Origin: an uncultured Opitutia bacterium
GTDB lineage: Bacteria; Verrucomicrobiota; Verrucomicrobiia; Opitutales; CAJWYM01
Assembly: GCA_913049555.1 (NCBI GenBank)
Contig: CAJWYM010000041.1
Location: 1-33,910, forward strand
DNA length: 33,910 bases
Direction: 5' to 3'
The notes beneath the pieces were generated by a model that did no database searches, had not been told where the DNA came from, and saw only the letters and a list, made by a program, of their open reading frames with translations. Positions 28,094 through 33,910 of the stretch are shown here, in pieces (position 1 is the stretch's first letter; every line of letters starts with the position of its first letter). The position numbers and the translations under genes are program-made.

Positions 28094-29350
28094 CTATATT
28101 ACTATCTGAATATTTCGCCTATGATAAGTTGGAATATCTAAATCTTGATCCTTGTAATAATTTTTTTCCGCTTGATGAAAATAACCGGTATCATCCAAGT
28201 CGAACTGAAATTCTCCTTGACGAGTTTCTTCCTCAGATTCCTTTTTTTTCGAATCATGAACAGGCTTTGTAAAGAGCTCGTTTTCAAAAGATTCATCTTC
28301 AAATCTTTTAGATTCAAGACTGGTCACGGAGGCCACAGCTTTCCCACTATCAAGATCAGTAGTTCCAAGCACTAAAATATGGACCTCATCCTCAAAAGAT
28401 TCATTAAAAGTGGCTCCAAAAATAGTATCATCCATGGAGCAGAACCGATCGGTCACCGTTCTCATGATATGATTGATCGATGGCATCTTAAGCCCTCGCC
28501 CTCCTTGAATATTGACTAATAAATGATCTGCCGCCCGAGATTGTTCTGAGATATGAAGCAATGGACACTGGATTAAATTATTGAGCGCATCTTGCACTCC
28601 ATTTTCTCCCTGACCCCTACCGATAGCAAACAATGTCCTCCCACCCTTGTGGGCAAATACTTTTCGTAAGTGAGGAAATTCAACATTGATAAGGCCTGTT
28701 TTCAGCAAAAGAGCGCAAATAGAATAAATTGCTTCTTCAATCCACTGATTGCCCTCCTTGAAAGCATCTATGACGTTGACATCCTCCCTTCCCTGCTGAA
28801 TCAAAATGTCATTTGGAAGAGGAATTACCGCATCCGCCAGTTGCCTCAATTCCAATAAACTATTTTCAGCAATTTCAGAGCGATTTCGACCTTGAAAACT
28901 AAAAGGCATAGCAACAAAATTAATTACCAAAGCCCCTAAATCAGAGGCTATTTTCGTAACAATTGGTGCAACCCCACTGCCTGTTCCACCCCCGAGTCCA
29001 GTAAAAACAAACACAAGATCATCTCCTTGTATTAACTTCGTAATTCTATCTTTCTCGCTTTGGGCGGATACTCTTCCTAAATCAACATCTCCACCAGTTC
29101 CTAAACCTCGAGTTTGGGACAAACCAATTTGAATGTTCCTATCGATCTGAAGGTTTTTAAGGTTGTTGAGATCCGTATCTATAACTGACAATCGAACCTC
29201 CCCCTCGATCTCTTTCAAGGAGATATCACGGATTAAATTACTGCCTGCACAACCAATCCCAATCAAATGAATCGACAGGCGAGAATTAAAAATTTTAGCG
29301 GAGTGCTTTTCATTTTCTGAATATTTGGAATGATCGTCAAGGGTATCCAT
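28094..29350 (-). CDS. ftsZ: Cell division protein FtsZ (divergent)
   Basis: This 418-residue tubulin-like GTPase has the tubulin signature GLGGGTGSG (118-126) and the strand LGALVINFVAMPFSFQG with the nucleotide-contact region. NDILI around Asn180 and TRGLGTGGDVDLGR are also conserved. The C-terminal tail ends DIPTYHRR plus a hydrophobic NIQIVI, matching the conserved peptide that binds FtsA. It polymerises into the Z ring. The synergy T7 loop reads NVEFPH (222-227), whereas E. coli has NVDFAD, so both loop aspartates are replaced. The G1 loop (GIGCAGSN) also departs from the usual glycine-rich form. Residues 330-395 are a charged, variable linker. It lies 4 bp after ftsA. Confidence 0.95.
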   Translation of the reverse strand: MDTLDDHSKYSENEKHSAKIFNSRLSIHLIGIGCAGSNLIRDISLKEIEGEVRLSVIDTDLNNLKNLQIDRNIQIGLSQTRGLGTGGDVDLGRVSAQSEKDRITKLIQGDDLVFVFTGLGGGTGSGVAPIVTKIASDLGALVINFVAMPFSFQGRNRSEIAENSLLELRQLADAVIPLPNDILIQQGREDVNVIDAFKEGNQWIEEAIYSICALLLKTGLINVEFPHLRKVFAHKGGRTLFAIGRGQGENGVQDALNNLIQCPLLHISEQSRAADHLLVNIQGGRGLKMPSINHIMRTVTDRFCSMDDTIFGATFNESFEDEVHILVLGTTDLDSGKAVASVTSLESKRFEDESFENELFTKPVHDSKKKESEEETRQGEFQFDLDDTGYFHQAEKNYYKDQDLDIPTYHRRNIQIVI

Positions 29351-29354
29351 GGAA

Positions 29355-30569
29355 TCAAAAACTTAAGATTGTAGAGAGTTTACCCATTAGGCTCTTTTTC
29401 TTGCCTCGGGTTTTACCTTCATTAGGATGCTTGAGTGCATAAGTAAGCAATCCAACCACCGTACTGTTTTCTGGTGAGTTAATGGGGTCTGCAGAGGAAG
29501 AAATTGGAGTTTTAGTAGCTACCAAGCCTAAACAAGATCCAGCAACTTTTTCAATTCCATTCAACCGAGAACTGCCTCCTGTTAAAATCAATCCAGCACC
29601 AATATGTTTCGGATCTAAAAACCCTCCTAATTCATCTTGAATTATAGTAAATAATTCATCCACTCTAGCATTAACAATTTGGTAAATTCCCCTCTTTCTA
29701 ATCTGCCGGTCTCCAATGGTCAAACCCCCTTCTGGATCTGTTCTTAGCCAAATTTTCTCATCATAATCGGAGGGATCAATGATCGCTTTGCCATAAGTTT
29801 TCTTAATCATTTCTGCATTCTCATGATCTACTCGAAGGCCAAATCTCAAGTCATTTGTAATGTGATCCCCACCGATAGGAACCGCACCCGTTTTGACAAT
29901 ATACCCATCCCTGTAGAGAACATAATCGGTGGTTCCCGAACCAATATCAATAACAAGAACCCCCATTTTCTTATCGGAGTCATCGGCAACAGAAGCACCG
30001 GAGGCGACGCTTGCTACAATCATATCCTCAACATGCAAGCCAATGCCGTTAATCACGTGAATATGATCTTTAATGGTTCGTTCATCCCCATGAATAGATA
30101 AATAACCCACCTCTAAACGATCTCCCTGGCAATCAAAGGGATCTTCAACCCGAGCCCCATCTAAATAAAAAGGATTTTGAACGTAATGAATATAAACTCG
30201 ATTCACATGCAACTGCTTGCTTTTTGCATCAGAGATCGCTCGTTTCATATCTTCTTTAGTCACTCGATTGTCAGAAGAACGAACGAGCGTAGAGCCTTTG
30301 TTAAAGTTGGAAACCAAATGAGCCCCTGTCTGGGAAAGAAAAACAAAGTTTACTTTAACCCCAGCAGCAGCTTCTGCCTCCAATATGGCAGTATGAGTGC
30401 AATGGCTTGCGGCACGAAAATCTACAATTTTTCCTTTTCGAACCCCCTTTGACTTTTGAACTCCCACTCCTAATAAATTCAAAGTTTTACCATCCAGAAT
30501 TTCGCCAATCAAAACGACCACTTTAGAGGTTCCAATTTCAATAGCCGCATAGGTGCTAACAGTAGACAT
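29355..30569 (-). CDS. ftsA: Cell division protein FtsA
   Basis: This 404-residue actin-like ATPase has IEIGTSKVVVLIGE (phosphate 1 site), VLVIDIGSGTTDYVLYRDG (phosphate 2), GGDHITNDLRFGL and LTGGSSRLNGIEKVAG (adenosine motif). The C terminus ends in a short amphipathic basic helix (KKKSLMGKLSTILSF), the membrane-targeting sequence that tethers FtsZ polymers to the inner membrane. It sits between ftsQ and ftsZ in the usual order. It ends 4 bp before ftsZ. No ribosome-binding sequence precedes its ATG. Confidence 0.96.
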   Translation of the reverse strand: MSTVSTYAAIEIGTSKVVVLIGEILDGKTLNLLGVGVQKSKGVRKGKIVDFRAASHCTHTAILEAEAAAGVKVNFVFLSQTGAHLVSNFNKGSTLVRSSDNRVTKEDMKRAISDAKSKQLHVNRVYIHYVQNPFYLDGARVEDPFDCQGDRLEVGYLSIHGDERTIKDHIHVINGIGLHVEDMIVASVASGASVADDSDKKMGVLVIDIGSGTTDYVLYRDGYIVKTGAVPIGGDHITNDLRFGLRVDHENAEMIKKTYGKAIIDPSDYDEKIWLRTDPEGGLTIGDRQIRKRGIYQIVNARVDELFTIIQDELGGFLDPKHIGAGLILTGGSSRLNGIEKVAGSCLGLVATKTPISSSADPINSPENSTVVGLLTYALKHPNEGKTRGKKKSLMGKLSTILSF

Positions 30570-30578
30570 AGCTGATAA

Positions 30579-31478
30579 TTATCGACTCGCAAGCTCAAGG
30601 ATTGCGGTATTTTTAAGAGACAAATCAACCACGCCCAAATAATTGATACCACTTTCAATTGTGGTTTTAAGAGCAACCGACAATCGACTCATCTGCACTT
30701 TATAATCTAAAGGTCGAAAGATAATCTTATCTACAATCGAGGAACGAACGTAGACAAATGCACCGATACCCAAATCTGTTTCCGCTAAATTTTTGTAAGA
30801 AATCACCCTCCAAGTTGAATAAATTTTAGAATAATTCCGTTTAGCATGTTCAATCAAAGGGTAAATTTGCTGAATCTCTTTAATGTTTTGATACTGATTC
30901 CCTTCTTTAACAAGGGAATCAGTTGCTAAAAAAGGAAGTTTACTTAGGAAGGATTTAGGATAATCGAACCCATTGAATATTTGTCCCTCGGAGGCAATTA
31001 AAAGATCCTGAAAACCAGAACCACGAGAAAGTCTAACTCTCATGACAGGTTCCAGTTCCTTAATAGTCACTTTTAAAGTGGAGGGAAAATGTCTCTGAAC
31101 TTCCGCCTGATCTACCTGCCCAAAACTCTCCAACTTTCTTTTTAATGAAAAAATATCCACATCCATTAGAGAAGCTCCTCTCTGAATCCCATGAACATTT
31201 TTCAACCATTCTGGACTCAAAACTCCGTCAGAATGGAAACGAATCGATTGAATCGGCTCTACAGGACCCGATAAATTAACATCGATAGGGTGACCTCGAA
31301 CATAATAAAAACCAGATACTAGAAAAGTAAAAAATCCAGCAATAAGAGCTAAAATGATACCAAACTTACAGCTCTTAAAGATCTTTCGTCTAAAAGCGGC
31401 AAAAGTGATTGGTTTGCGACCAACATCTTGCTTGATATTAGACCAATGTTTTTCCTTAACCTTATTTAGACGCCTCAT
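30579..31478 (-). CDS. ftsQ: Cell division protein FtsQ
   Basis: This 299-residue bitopic protein has a basic cytoplasmic tail, one membrane helix at about residues 38-60, a POTRA-like domain (about 75-143, with VDIFSLKRKLESFGQVDQAEV and FPSTLKVTIKELEPV), and a beta domain to the end. It scaffolds FtsB and FtsL in the divisome on the periplasmic side. FtsQ is poorly conserved, so the call draws on both this architecture and its place between ddl and ftsA. It ends 9 bp before ftsA. Confidence 0.9.
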   Translation of the reverse strand: MRRLNKVKEKHWSNIKQDVGRKPITFAAFRRKIFKSCKFGIILALIAGFFTFLVSGFYYVRGHPIDVNLSGPVEPIQSIRFHSDGVLSPEWLKNVHGIQRGASLMDVDIFSLKRKLESFGQVDQAEVQRHFPSTLKVTIKELEPVMRVRLSRGSGFQDLLIASEGQIFNGFDYPKSFLSKLPFLATDSLVKEGNQYQNIKEIQQIYPLIEHAKRNYSKIYSTWRVISYKNLAETDLGIGAFVYVRSSIVDKIIFRPLDYKVQMSRLSVALKTTIESGINYLGVVDLSLKNTAILELASR

Positions 31479-31498: not shown

Positions 31499-32398
31499 CT
31501 ATAATAAACGGTTTATTGAAGGGGTGACAAGCTTGATAACCAATTCATCAAAAGATATCCCATTGACCGAGGCAGATTTAGGTAAAAGACTGGTTTCTGT
31601 CATTCCCGGCAAAGTGTTTGCCTCTAAGAAATAAATTTCCCCTTGATTCGAAATCATAAAATCAATTCGTGCAAAATCTCTACATTTTAATTCATTGTAA
31701 GACTTTTCCGCAAAGGCTTGAACTTTTAAAATGAAATGGCTTTTCAGCTTCGCAGGCACCTCATAATTGGTCATGCCAGGTGTGTATTTATGTTTGTAAT
31801 CATAAAAACCACTTGCAGGTCTAACACCAATGACTCCCTGAGAAATTCCATCCAACAAACCAACCGTCAAATCAAAACCTTCAATCTTATGCTCAAAGAT
31901 CCAACGTCCTTTTAAAGAAGAATATTCCTTCAATAAATCTTCACCTTTCAATTCAGCGAGACCTACACTGCTCCCTTGACAAACTGGCTTAATGACATAA
32001 TCGATGGAGGGATTTATCCAGTTAGAAAAATCTTTTGGTTTTGAGCAATCCCATTCAACTCCATGAGCAGTTGGAATTCCAACAGAATCCATTGTCATTT
32101 TAGCCGCCACTTTATCAAAACAGAGTGCACTGCTGGTCGAATCAGAACCCACATATTCAATAGATCGGTCCTCCAATTCGGTTTGCAACGATCCATCCTC
32201 CCCCCATTCTCCGTGGAGAGCAGGAAAAACAATCCACTGAGAATCAGCCAATCCCTCTGGTACTTTGTGCTGGTCTAAGATGAAAAGTTCCGCATCCCAA
32301 TTTTTTTTGATAGACTCATAGACAGCAGCTCCAGTTTTTAAAGAAACCGTGCGTTCCTCACTTCTACCCCCACAAAAGATCGCAAATTTTGGACTCAC
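31499..32398 (-). CDS. ddl: D-alanine--D-alanine ligase
   Basis: This 299-residue ATP-grasp ligase opens with FAIFCGGRSEERTVSLKTG, the first D-Ala site. YVIKPVCQGSSVGLAEL is the ATP-grasp loop, and FARIDFMISNQGEIYFLEAN with TLPGMTETS forms the Mg2+ and second D-Ala site. It makes the D-Ala-D-Ala dipeptide for the peptidoglycan stem. The length is at the short end for Ddl. It starts in an ATGA overlap with the murC-murB fusion, so production is translationally coupled. ftsQ follows after 20 bp. Confidence 0.95.
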   Translation of the reverse strand: MSPKFAIFCGGRSEERTVSLKTGAAVYESIKKNWDAELFILDQHKVPEGLADSQWIVFPALHGEWGEDGSLQTELEDRSIEYVGSDSTSSALCFDKVAAKMTMDSVGIPTAHGVEWDCSKPKDFSNWINPSIDYVIKPVCQGSSVGLAELKGEDLLKEYSSLKGRWIFEHKIEGFDLTVGLLDGISQGVIGVRPASGFYDYKHKYTPGMTNYEVPAKLKSHFILKVQAFAEKSYNELKCRDFARIDFMISNQGEIYFLEANTLPGMTETSLLPKSASVNGISFDELVIKLVTPSINRLL

Positions 32399-33910
32399 AG
32401 TATTGATTCCCAGCTATCTCCAATCAATAAGGCCTCGGGCTCCAATTCAATACCCCGCATTTCTAAAATATGATCTCGAACTTTCTTAACAAGTTTGAGC
32501 ACATCCTCACTGCTTGCATTTCCATTGTTAATAATGAAATTTCCATGGGTATTTGATATCTCTGCACCTCCAACTGAGGTCCCTTTTAATCCAAGCTCAT
32601 CGATCAATTTACCTGCATGTCCGTTCGGCGGATTTTTAAATATGCAGCCGGCGCTTGGTTCCTTGGGCTGTGAGGACTTTCTATGGAATGACAACTTTGT
32701 CATCTGATCCCGAATGCCGTTGGGATCTCCAAATCCCGTTGATTTTAAAACAGCTCCTAATGCAATCCCATCAACAAGTTCTTTGCACTTTCGATATTCA
32801 ACATTGAAAAGTTTATGATCTAATACTCTTGTTTTACCCTCTGAATCTAAAAAGTAAACCGTCTTTACAATATCAAAGATCCAAAAACCCATAGCTCCTG
32901 CATTCATACGAAGGGATCCCCCTAAAGATCCTGGAATTCCCTCCAAAAACTCAAAACCTTCCAACCCAAATTGGGCGGCTTTTGCGCACAATTCTTTCAA
33001 TCGAACTCCTGCACCAGCAAAGACCTTATCTTTTCCAACCCTAGAGATTGAATTCCACTCCCCTTTGTTCAATCGAATGACTACTCCATCAAAACCTAAA
33101 TCGGATACGATTAAATTGGACCCTCTTCCAAACATAAAAACAGGATATTTAAAAAATTTGGAAACCTGCAATACCCACTTTAGGTCGTGCAAACTTTTAG
33201 GTTCAATATAAAAACGAGCATTTCCACCCACTCTGAGGGTTGTTTTTTTTGCCATCGAAAAATTTCCCTGAACTACGGCATCCAAAGAAAGTTCAGATTT
33301 AATGTATTGCTCCCATAATGTTTCATTCCCTTCCTGTTTCTTTAAAGACAGCAGAAAAATTCTAGCCCAATGCTCAATATCCCCAGCCCCAAGAAACAAA
33401 ATTGTCTTTTTATTTGAATCCTCCTTCAATGATTGGGACAAATCATGGACTAATTCCTCCACACAATCTGGGCATTTGGGCAGTTCTTTACAATTCGAGA
33501 AAGCCCTTTGAAATTCATGATCGACTTCTTGACCTTGTAATTCCTCATTAGCCCCATAAACAGGCAACAGATAAACTTGAGAATAAGAGGATAAAACTGA
33601 AACAAATTCTTCCTTGAAAGCCATTGTTCTTGAGTAACGATGCGGTTGAAAAACAATCCACAAGTCTTGAGAGGGTCTAAATCCTTGTAAAAAGGCAGCC
33701 AGCTCTTTTGGGTGATGCGCATAATCTTCAATTACTTGAATTTTCTCATTATCAAAAAGGACTGAATTTCTTCTTTTAACTCCTATAAAATCCAAAAGAA
33801 TTTCAGAATTTAAATCCAAATTAAAGAGGGAATTACAGACTTTTAAAGCTACAATTCGGTTTGTTTCTTGATAGGAGATTTCTGAATCAGAAAAATAGAT
33901 AAATTCTCTG
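32395..33910 (-). CDS. MurC-MurB fusion (partial; N-terminal MurC portion outside window)
   Basis: One continuous frame runs off the right edge and joins two enzymes. The visible ~185 N-terminal residues are the C-terminal part of MurC (UDP-MurNAc-L-Ala ligase): FIGVKRRNSVL, VIEDYAHHPKELAAFL and WIVFQPHRYSRTMAF. The remaining ~290 residues are a complete MurB (UDP-MurNAc reductase): FGRGSNLIVSDLGFDG, GIPGSLGGSLRMNAGAMG, AGCIFKNP and NTHGNFIINNG. Both act on the same UDP-sugar, so fusing them would channel the intermediate. In the MurB catalytic stretch the Ser of the usual AGS-FKNP is Cys (SAGCIFKNP). A TTG at 33819 is in frame, but the frame is open to the edge, so I do not treat it as the start. 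Confidence 0.92.
   Translation of the reverse strand, partial: REFIYFSDSEISYQETNRIVALKVCNSLFNLDLNSEILLDFIGVKRRNSVLFDNEKIQVIEDYAHHPKELAAFLQGFRPSQDLWIVFQPHRYSRTMAFKEEFVSVLSSYSQVYLLPVYGANEELQGQEVDHEFQRAFSNCKELPKCPDCVEELVHDLSQSLKEDSNKKTILFLGAGDIEHWARIFLLSLKKQEGNETLWEQYIKSELSLDAVVQGNFSMAKKTTLRVGGNARFYIEPKSLHDLKWVLQVSKFFKYPVFMFGRGSNLIVSDLGFDGVVIRLNKGEWNSISRVGKDKVFAGAGVRLKELCAKAAQFGLEGFEFLEGIPGSLGGSLRMNAGAMGFWIFDIVKTVYFLDSEGKTRVLDHKLFNVEYRKCKELVDGIALGAVLKSTGFGDPNGIRDQMTKLSFHRKSSQPKEPSAGCIFKNPPNGHAGKLIDELGLKGTSVGGAEISNTHGNFIINNGNASSEDVLKLVKKVRDHILEMRGIELEPEALLIGDSWESIL

Follow-up and report, generated by a model that had tools for sequence, protein, structure and literature searches.

The ftsZ gene in the window, as we call the whole 33,910-nt stretch of Opitutales DNA analysed here, raises the question of how a division FtsZ operates when its synergy loop lacks the usual pair of aspartates. 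In ordinary FtsZ, the attacking water above the GTP of the neighbour is held by both T7 aspartates of the upper subunit. In S. aureus filaments, these are Asp210 (209 in E. coli) and Asp213 (212 in E. coli) (PMC8936486). Asp210 swings toward the transition state and positions the water, while Asp213 stays put, supplies the environment and is water-bridged to Arg143 of the lower subunit (PMC8936486). D210N and D213N each abolish assembly, and D46, Q48, R143, N208, D210 and D213 are termed 'all conserved across species' (PMC8936486). Three of these six differ in the window FtsZ.

The gene occupies 28094–29350 on the minus strand and encodes 418 residues plus a stop. The T7 loop and the start of helix H8, TGLINVEFPHLRK (residues 218–230; 28661–28699, minus strand), are placed by sequence and alignments and fall in a well-modelled part of the protein (AlphaFold2 mean pLDDT 93–94 for residues 211–230). 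The motif is N222-V-E224-F-P-H227, as against N207-V-D209-F-A-D212 in E. coli. Of the canonical NxDxxD pattern, the Asn at 207 is present as N222, while 209 is E224 (codon GAA, 28679–28681, minus strand) and 212 is H227 (codon CAC, 28670–28672, minus strand). These two residues are equated with E. coli D209 and D212, or S. aureus D210 and D213, because the loop aligns with no gaps, both pairwise with the B. subtilis and M. tuberculosis proteins and jointly with E. coli FtsZ and 153 relatives.

The first-pass annotation had contrasted the loop with E. coli MNVDFADVRT and read Asp209 as Glu and Asp212 as His, and the codons and ungapped alignments bear this out. An acid restoring the loop by a nearby shift was considered and rejected, since residues 225–233 contain none and no gap is needed, so the T7 change stands. 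That both catalytic aspartates are lost is right inasmuch as neither is Asp, but the 209 position is still acidic because Glu retains the carboxylate.

The loop could instead reflect a sequencing or assembly error, as a single base change would turn either GAA or CAC into an Asp codon and the locus comes from a single assembly. The frame error named beforehand as a possible refutation is absent, however, the open reading frame running from end to end with no internal stop or frame change. The Glu/His pair also occurs in another family (L031), and the 212 acid is missing from nearly the whole order. With a loss almost order-wide, chance or error explains the loop as a whole poorly, and we regard an error as highly improbable, a private one at one of the two codons being the form that keeps a small probability.

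In other respects, the gene looks like a working division FtsZ. A possible second ftsZ had been raised, and the PF00091 (tubulin/FtsZ) search of the genome, which is 95.3% complete, returned this one match and no other. The protein matches PF00091 (1.5e-34) and PF12327 (1.3e-13), both over the cut-off, and carries the tubulin signature GGGTGSG (T4) at residues 120–126. It falls below the cut-off of the TIGR00065 ftsZ equivalog (244.7 versus 295.2 bits), but that cut-off is too strict for this phylum, since no more than 29 of the 141 genomes from the class pass it, and 11 of the 115 in the phylum sample.

The C-terminal conserved peptide, LDIPTYHRRNIQIVI with the stop (28094–28141, minus strand), is the FtsA-binding tail, and its DLDIPTYHRR fits the DLDxPTxxRR pattern conserved through Opitutales. 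Upstream, the dcw order is usual with a murC-murB fusion, ddl, ftsQ (30579–31478, minus strand; PF08478) and ftsA (29355–30569, minus strand; PF14450 at 1.1e-29, and PF02491). Spot checks of the divisome also found FtsW/RodA-type genes in this genome, which is about 3.1 Mb and not reduced. The murC and murB genes are fused in one reading frame at 32395–33910 on the minus strand (Mur_ligase_C, then FAD_binding_4 and MurB_C), a fusion known from Verrucomicrobium spinosum (PMC12283558).

The loop had been framed as an odd one-off, and this did not survive the survey of 55 Opitutales FtsZ and 98 from other orders of the class. An alignment-based search added 80 named loci, where a single-protein query had found none. 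The acid at 212 is absent in 131 of 135 Opitutales FtsZ, that is, in 51 of the 55 from the genome survey and all 80 named loci, whose rank, where given, is mostly Opitutales or Opitutae. The nearest relatives of the window FtsZ belong to the same order and are mostly 35–45% identical to it. For bacteria more widely, the T7 baseline is drawn from published work and a small number of solved structures.

The 209/212 pairs in the 55 surveyed proteins are D/T in 26, D/S in 10, D/A in 7, D/D in 3, D/H in 3 and E/H in 2 with four singletons, and those in the 80 named loci are D/T in 59, D/S in 10, D/A in 9 and D/M in 2. Hence D209 is almost invariant across the order. Most of the Opitutales loops among those listed have no acid shifted in from an adjacent position. 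Some of the named loci come from cultured strains, and strain-titled records without the 212 acid include Cerasicoccus maritimus NBRC 105382 and C. arenae KCTC 12870 (LDFAML), Opitutaceae bacterium EW11 (LDFSTL) and Opi.OSU.00C (VDFSTL). Two Cerasicoccus proteins (L168 and L179) have Met at 212 and His in place of the catalytic Arg142.

Neither residue of the window pair is unique. Families f1, f6, f9, f39 and f59 also show Glu at 209, and His at 212 is found in several families, although the two occur together only in the window and L031. The annotation had proposed either a His/Glu chemistry or slow turnover. Each is a natural inference, but a dedicated His/Glu chemistry is superfluous for the lineage, as His212 recurs and stands where the order otherwise mostly has Thr, Ser or Ala.

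The other orders mirror this pattern. Among their 98 FtsZ, 212 is Asp or Glu in 85 and 209 in 33, and where 209 carries no acid, Gly, Thr or Ser usually stands there. By column variability, 209 ranks within the 7% of core columns that vary least in Opitutales and 212 at the 65th percentile, whereas in the other orders 209 lies at the 57th percentile and 212 at the 17th. The constraint is complementary at the two positions and has moved between Opitutales and the other orders.

Other loop variants were seen outside Opitutales. Where 209 is Gly, as in L110, L095 and L047 of other orders, a new acid often stands at 211 (GLDDL or GLDEL), and such loops are a second, different rebuilding of the synergy loop. 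The FtsZ of L275, L276, L278 and L279, from other classes of the phylum, has Arg at 212, basic as in β-tubulin. Family f35 (e.g. L157–L161) is very divergent, with TIGR00065 E-values of 1e-6 to 1e-22 and an uncertain alignment of the T7 loop.

The history of the two positions was traced on trees. On the Opitutales tree, built with columns 209 and 212 left out, the Opitutales FtsZ form a single clade with 100/100 support, and the D/D family f24 branches at its base, where the branching order is not fixed. The 212 acid requires a minimum of four changes on this tree, of which one falls in the outgroup. This fits one loss of D212 after the f24 split with later regains or variants (L020 and L023). 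The tree is compatible with either shared descent or separate origin of the Glu/His pair in the window and L031.

Across 170 FtsZ on a tree of the class and phylum, both acids are present in 41, only that at 209 in 57, only that at 212 in 67 and neither in 5. On a FastTree phylogeny with the most divergent families left out, a model of dependent evolution fits better than one of independence (LR 18.45, nominal p 0.001), with the loss of the second acid 7–10 times slower than that of the first. In 104 simulations that assumed independence this ratio was never reached, and the dependence persists without Opitutales (LR 13.6) and without f30, f36 and f52 (LR 16.1).

The count of proteins with neither acid is not extreme alone in the simulation (P = 0.148), and dependence is better supported by the likelihood-ratio test. 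The independent-pairs test had too few informative pairs or well supported contrasts for a sign test. Dependent evolution of 209 and 212 is supported, while the supported branches give too few contrasts to confirm it. The pattern suggests that FtsZ in this phylum manages with one acid where the textbook FtsZ has two.

The retained acid bears on whether hydrolysis is needed at all. The window FtsZ could be a GTPase-dead or nearly dead scaffold, which forms GTP filaments with little hydrolysis and no treadmilling and recruits the septal wall machinery that constricts. Tubulin offers a parallel, since its position 254 matches FtsZ 212. There, α E254 versus β K254 separates the catalytic from the non-catalytic T7 loop (PMC13394414). 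E. coli D212A is cited in PMC8142252 as having about 7% of the GTPase left. PMC4383033 cites the GTPase-deficient FtsZ(D212G) as functional in E. coli division. Cells with extra D212A plus FtsA also divide. Constriction in S. aureus can run independently of treadmilling, according to another report (PMC10994846).

On the other hand, at least one T7 carboxylate is kept in 165 of the 170 proteins and 209 is strongly constrained within the order, which would be unexpected if hydrolysis were dispensable. Position 209 may be kept for assembly instead of catalysis, an assembly role being possible in that D210N blocks assembly too. On balance, we consider the scaffold rather unlikely. Against the single-carboxylate loop preferred below, a single loss is not harmless in a canonical background, as the effects of S. 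aureus D210N and D213N and of E. coli D212G indicate, the last failing to complement unless a suppressor is present (PMC5405962).

The rest of the protein had been described as intact, which holds for GGGTGSG and the FtsA-binding tail but not for the nucleotide surroundings. Four further substitutions lie there: N43D in loop T2 (D58; 29177–29179), Q47N (N62; 29165–29167), E138Q (Q153; 28892–28894) and G20C (C34), the first three placed by alignment or comparison on the minus strand. Position 43 corresponds to S. aureus N44, a residue that holds waters bound to Mg2+ beside the γ-phosphate, and 47 to Q48, which locks K+ into the neighbour's T7 loop. E138Q is very rare, 138 being Glu in all other Opitutales compared.

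The catalytic Arg is kept as R157 (E. coli R142, S. aureus R143; 28880–28882, minus strand, by alignment), as are N222, the T2 Asp D60 and the T3 Gly G86. The AlphaFold2 model has a core pLDDT mostly above 90, with 93–94 for the blocks 211–220 and 221–230, and aligns with solved FtsZ chains across the whole core (Z 36–38.5 over about 300 residues). The best superposition reaches Z 38.5, and the filament 7ohk with GDP-BeF3-Mg gives Z 36.7 over 304 residues.

These changes invite the idea that hydrolysis runs at full rate because another interface residue near Mg2+ replaces D212, for example Asp43 in T2. The window does have N43D, at a position where S. aureus N44 touches the Mg2+-bound waters. 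However, Asp43 was ruled out as a tracker of the 212 loss, since it occurs in 19 of the 55 surveyed Opitutales and 32 of the 98 FtsZ from other orders. T162P, M217F and A312G alone cleanly split Opitutales from the D/D families, and none of them is acidic. Compensation of this kind is therefore quite unlikely in our estimate.

Alternatively, selection might have relaxed in the window lineage, with FtsZ losing importance and the Glu/His pair, E138Q and the other changes drifting toward loss. The window branch is long, 0.96 against a median of 0.33, with a position within the order that the tree does not fix, and several otherwise fixed pocket positions hold odd residues. Six small-genome Opitutales also gave no FtsZ match. 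Yet the reading frame, the FtsA-binding tail, ftsA and ftsQ are all intact, N222, R157, D60, G86 and GGGTGSG are kept and the genome is of about 3.1 Mb, so we see only a slim prospect for relaxation.

These six genomes (G006, G024, G028, G033, G042 and G043) are of the same order, 0.8–1.0 Mb in size and 90–95% complete, and have no PF00091 match. Their PF14450 matches are weak, at most about 49 bits with none in one genome, and perhaps belong to MreB, and each genome has two FtsW/RodA genes. From gene content, these bacteria may divide without FtsZ and FtsA, like Chlamydiota. G017 (4.1 Mb), G035 (2.7 Mb) and G178 (1.3 Mb), 95–98% complete, also lack a match to FtsZ, which may reflect an assembly gap or real absence. 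In G155, G159 and G172 (f52), FtsZ is accompanied by one or two weak FtsZ/tubulin matches each, covering only about positions 97–218, and these may be the bacterial tubulins BtubA/B.

The explanation we prefer, at an even chance, is a working but slow single-copy FtsZ with a synergy loop remodelled to use a single carboxylate where ordinary FtsZ has two. Asp212 would have been lost early in Opitutales, probably after the f24 split, and the order would continue on D209 alone. The choice of 209 as the kept acid fits the S. aureus structures, where D210 moves to place the water and D213 is static. In the window lineage, D209 would then have changed to Glu, keeping the mobile carboxylate that places the water, and 212 to His, which may hydrogen-bond the water shell as a stand-in other than the usual acid.

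R157 and the Mg2+/K+ shell would remain unchanged in kind. On these grounds, hydrolysis would persist with E224 performing it, at a slow rate. The protein would be expected to form GTP-dependent filaments, to hydrolyse and turn over slowly and to recruit the divisome via its intact FtsA-binding tail. Its activity may even be below that of its relatives, given the long branch together with E138Q, N43D and Q47N.

A broader generalization is that the order divides with a one-acid synergy loop, that the T7 acids are individually but not jointly dispensable across the phylum and that the Glu/His pair of the window is a further step. We hold this whole statement tentatively, at somewhat under an even chance. 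If it is true, FtsZ hydrolysis would not require the paired aspartates found in the FtsZ proteins that have been studied in detail.

D209 and D212 have been regarded as invariant elements of the FtsZ active site. Opitutales with 212 lost almost throughout, beside orders with 209 lost, are a natural experiment on which acid serves hydrolysis and which serves assembly. The same contrast bears on whether division requires treadmilling, and the finding bears on the origin of the FtsZ-less phyla in the same superphylum. Culturable Opitutales exist, so direct testing is possible. That verrucomicrobial FtsZ is generally divergent was already known (PMC9871819; PMC1845146). The open-access literature, a scope outside which Pilhofer et al. 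2008 (J. Bacteriol., on verrucomicrobial division genes) falls, yielded no description of T7 aspartate loss in Verrucomicrobiota.

Among known systems, the FtsZ of Ca. Thiosymbion oneisti (PMC8953583) and Spiroplasma eriocheiris (PMC11987601) have naturally low GTPase, as would be expected for the window protein, but both reportedly retain conserved catalytic residues, unlike the protein here. FtsZ2 and the E. coli D212G and D212A mutants share the loss of the 212 acid, and their polymers hydrolyse slowly. The E. coli mutations each alter one residue of an otherwise canonical protein and do harm, whereas the Opitutales loss is old and fixed across the order.

β-Tubulin, with Lys254 at the non-hydrolysing α/β site, lacks the acid at the same loop position, and hydrolysis is switched off there. 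Tubulin alternates this subunit with an acid-bearing partner, while the window protein keeps the preceding acid (209, or 251 in tubulin). As the only FtsZ copy, it would make every interface of the altered kind.

With the canonical NxDxxD FtsZ of E. coli, B. subtilis and S. aureus, the window FtsZ shares the core fold, GGGTGSG, the equivalents of N207, R142, D45 and G71, the C-terminal tail, the dcw position and the single copy. It differs by Glu for D209, His for D212, N43D, Q47N, E138Q and G20C. With the other Opitutales FtsZ, to which it is about 40–45% identical, it shares the missing 212 acid, the 209 carboxylate and the DLDxPTxxRR tail. Those relatives nearly always have Asp209 with Thr, Ser or Ala at 212, Asn43 (86%) and Glu138 (100%), where the window FtsZ has Glu with His, Asp and Gln.
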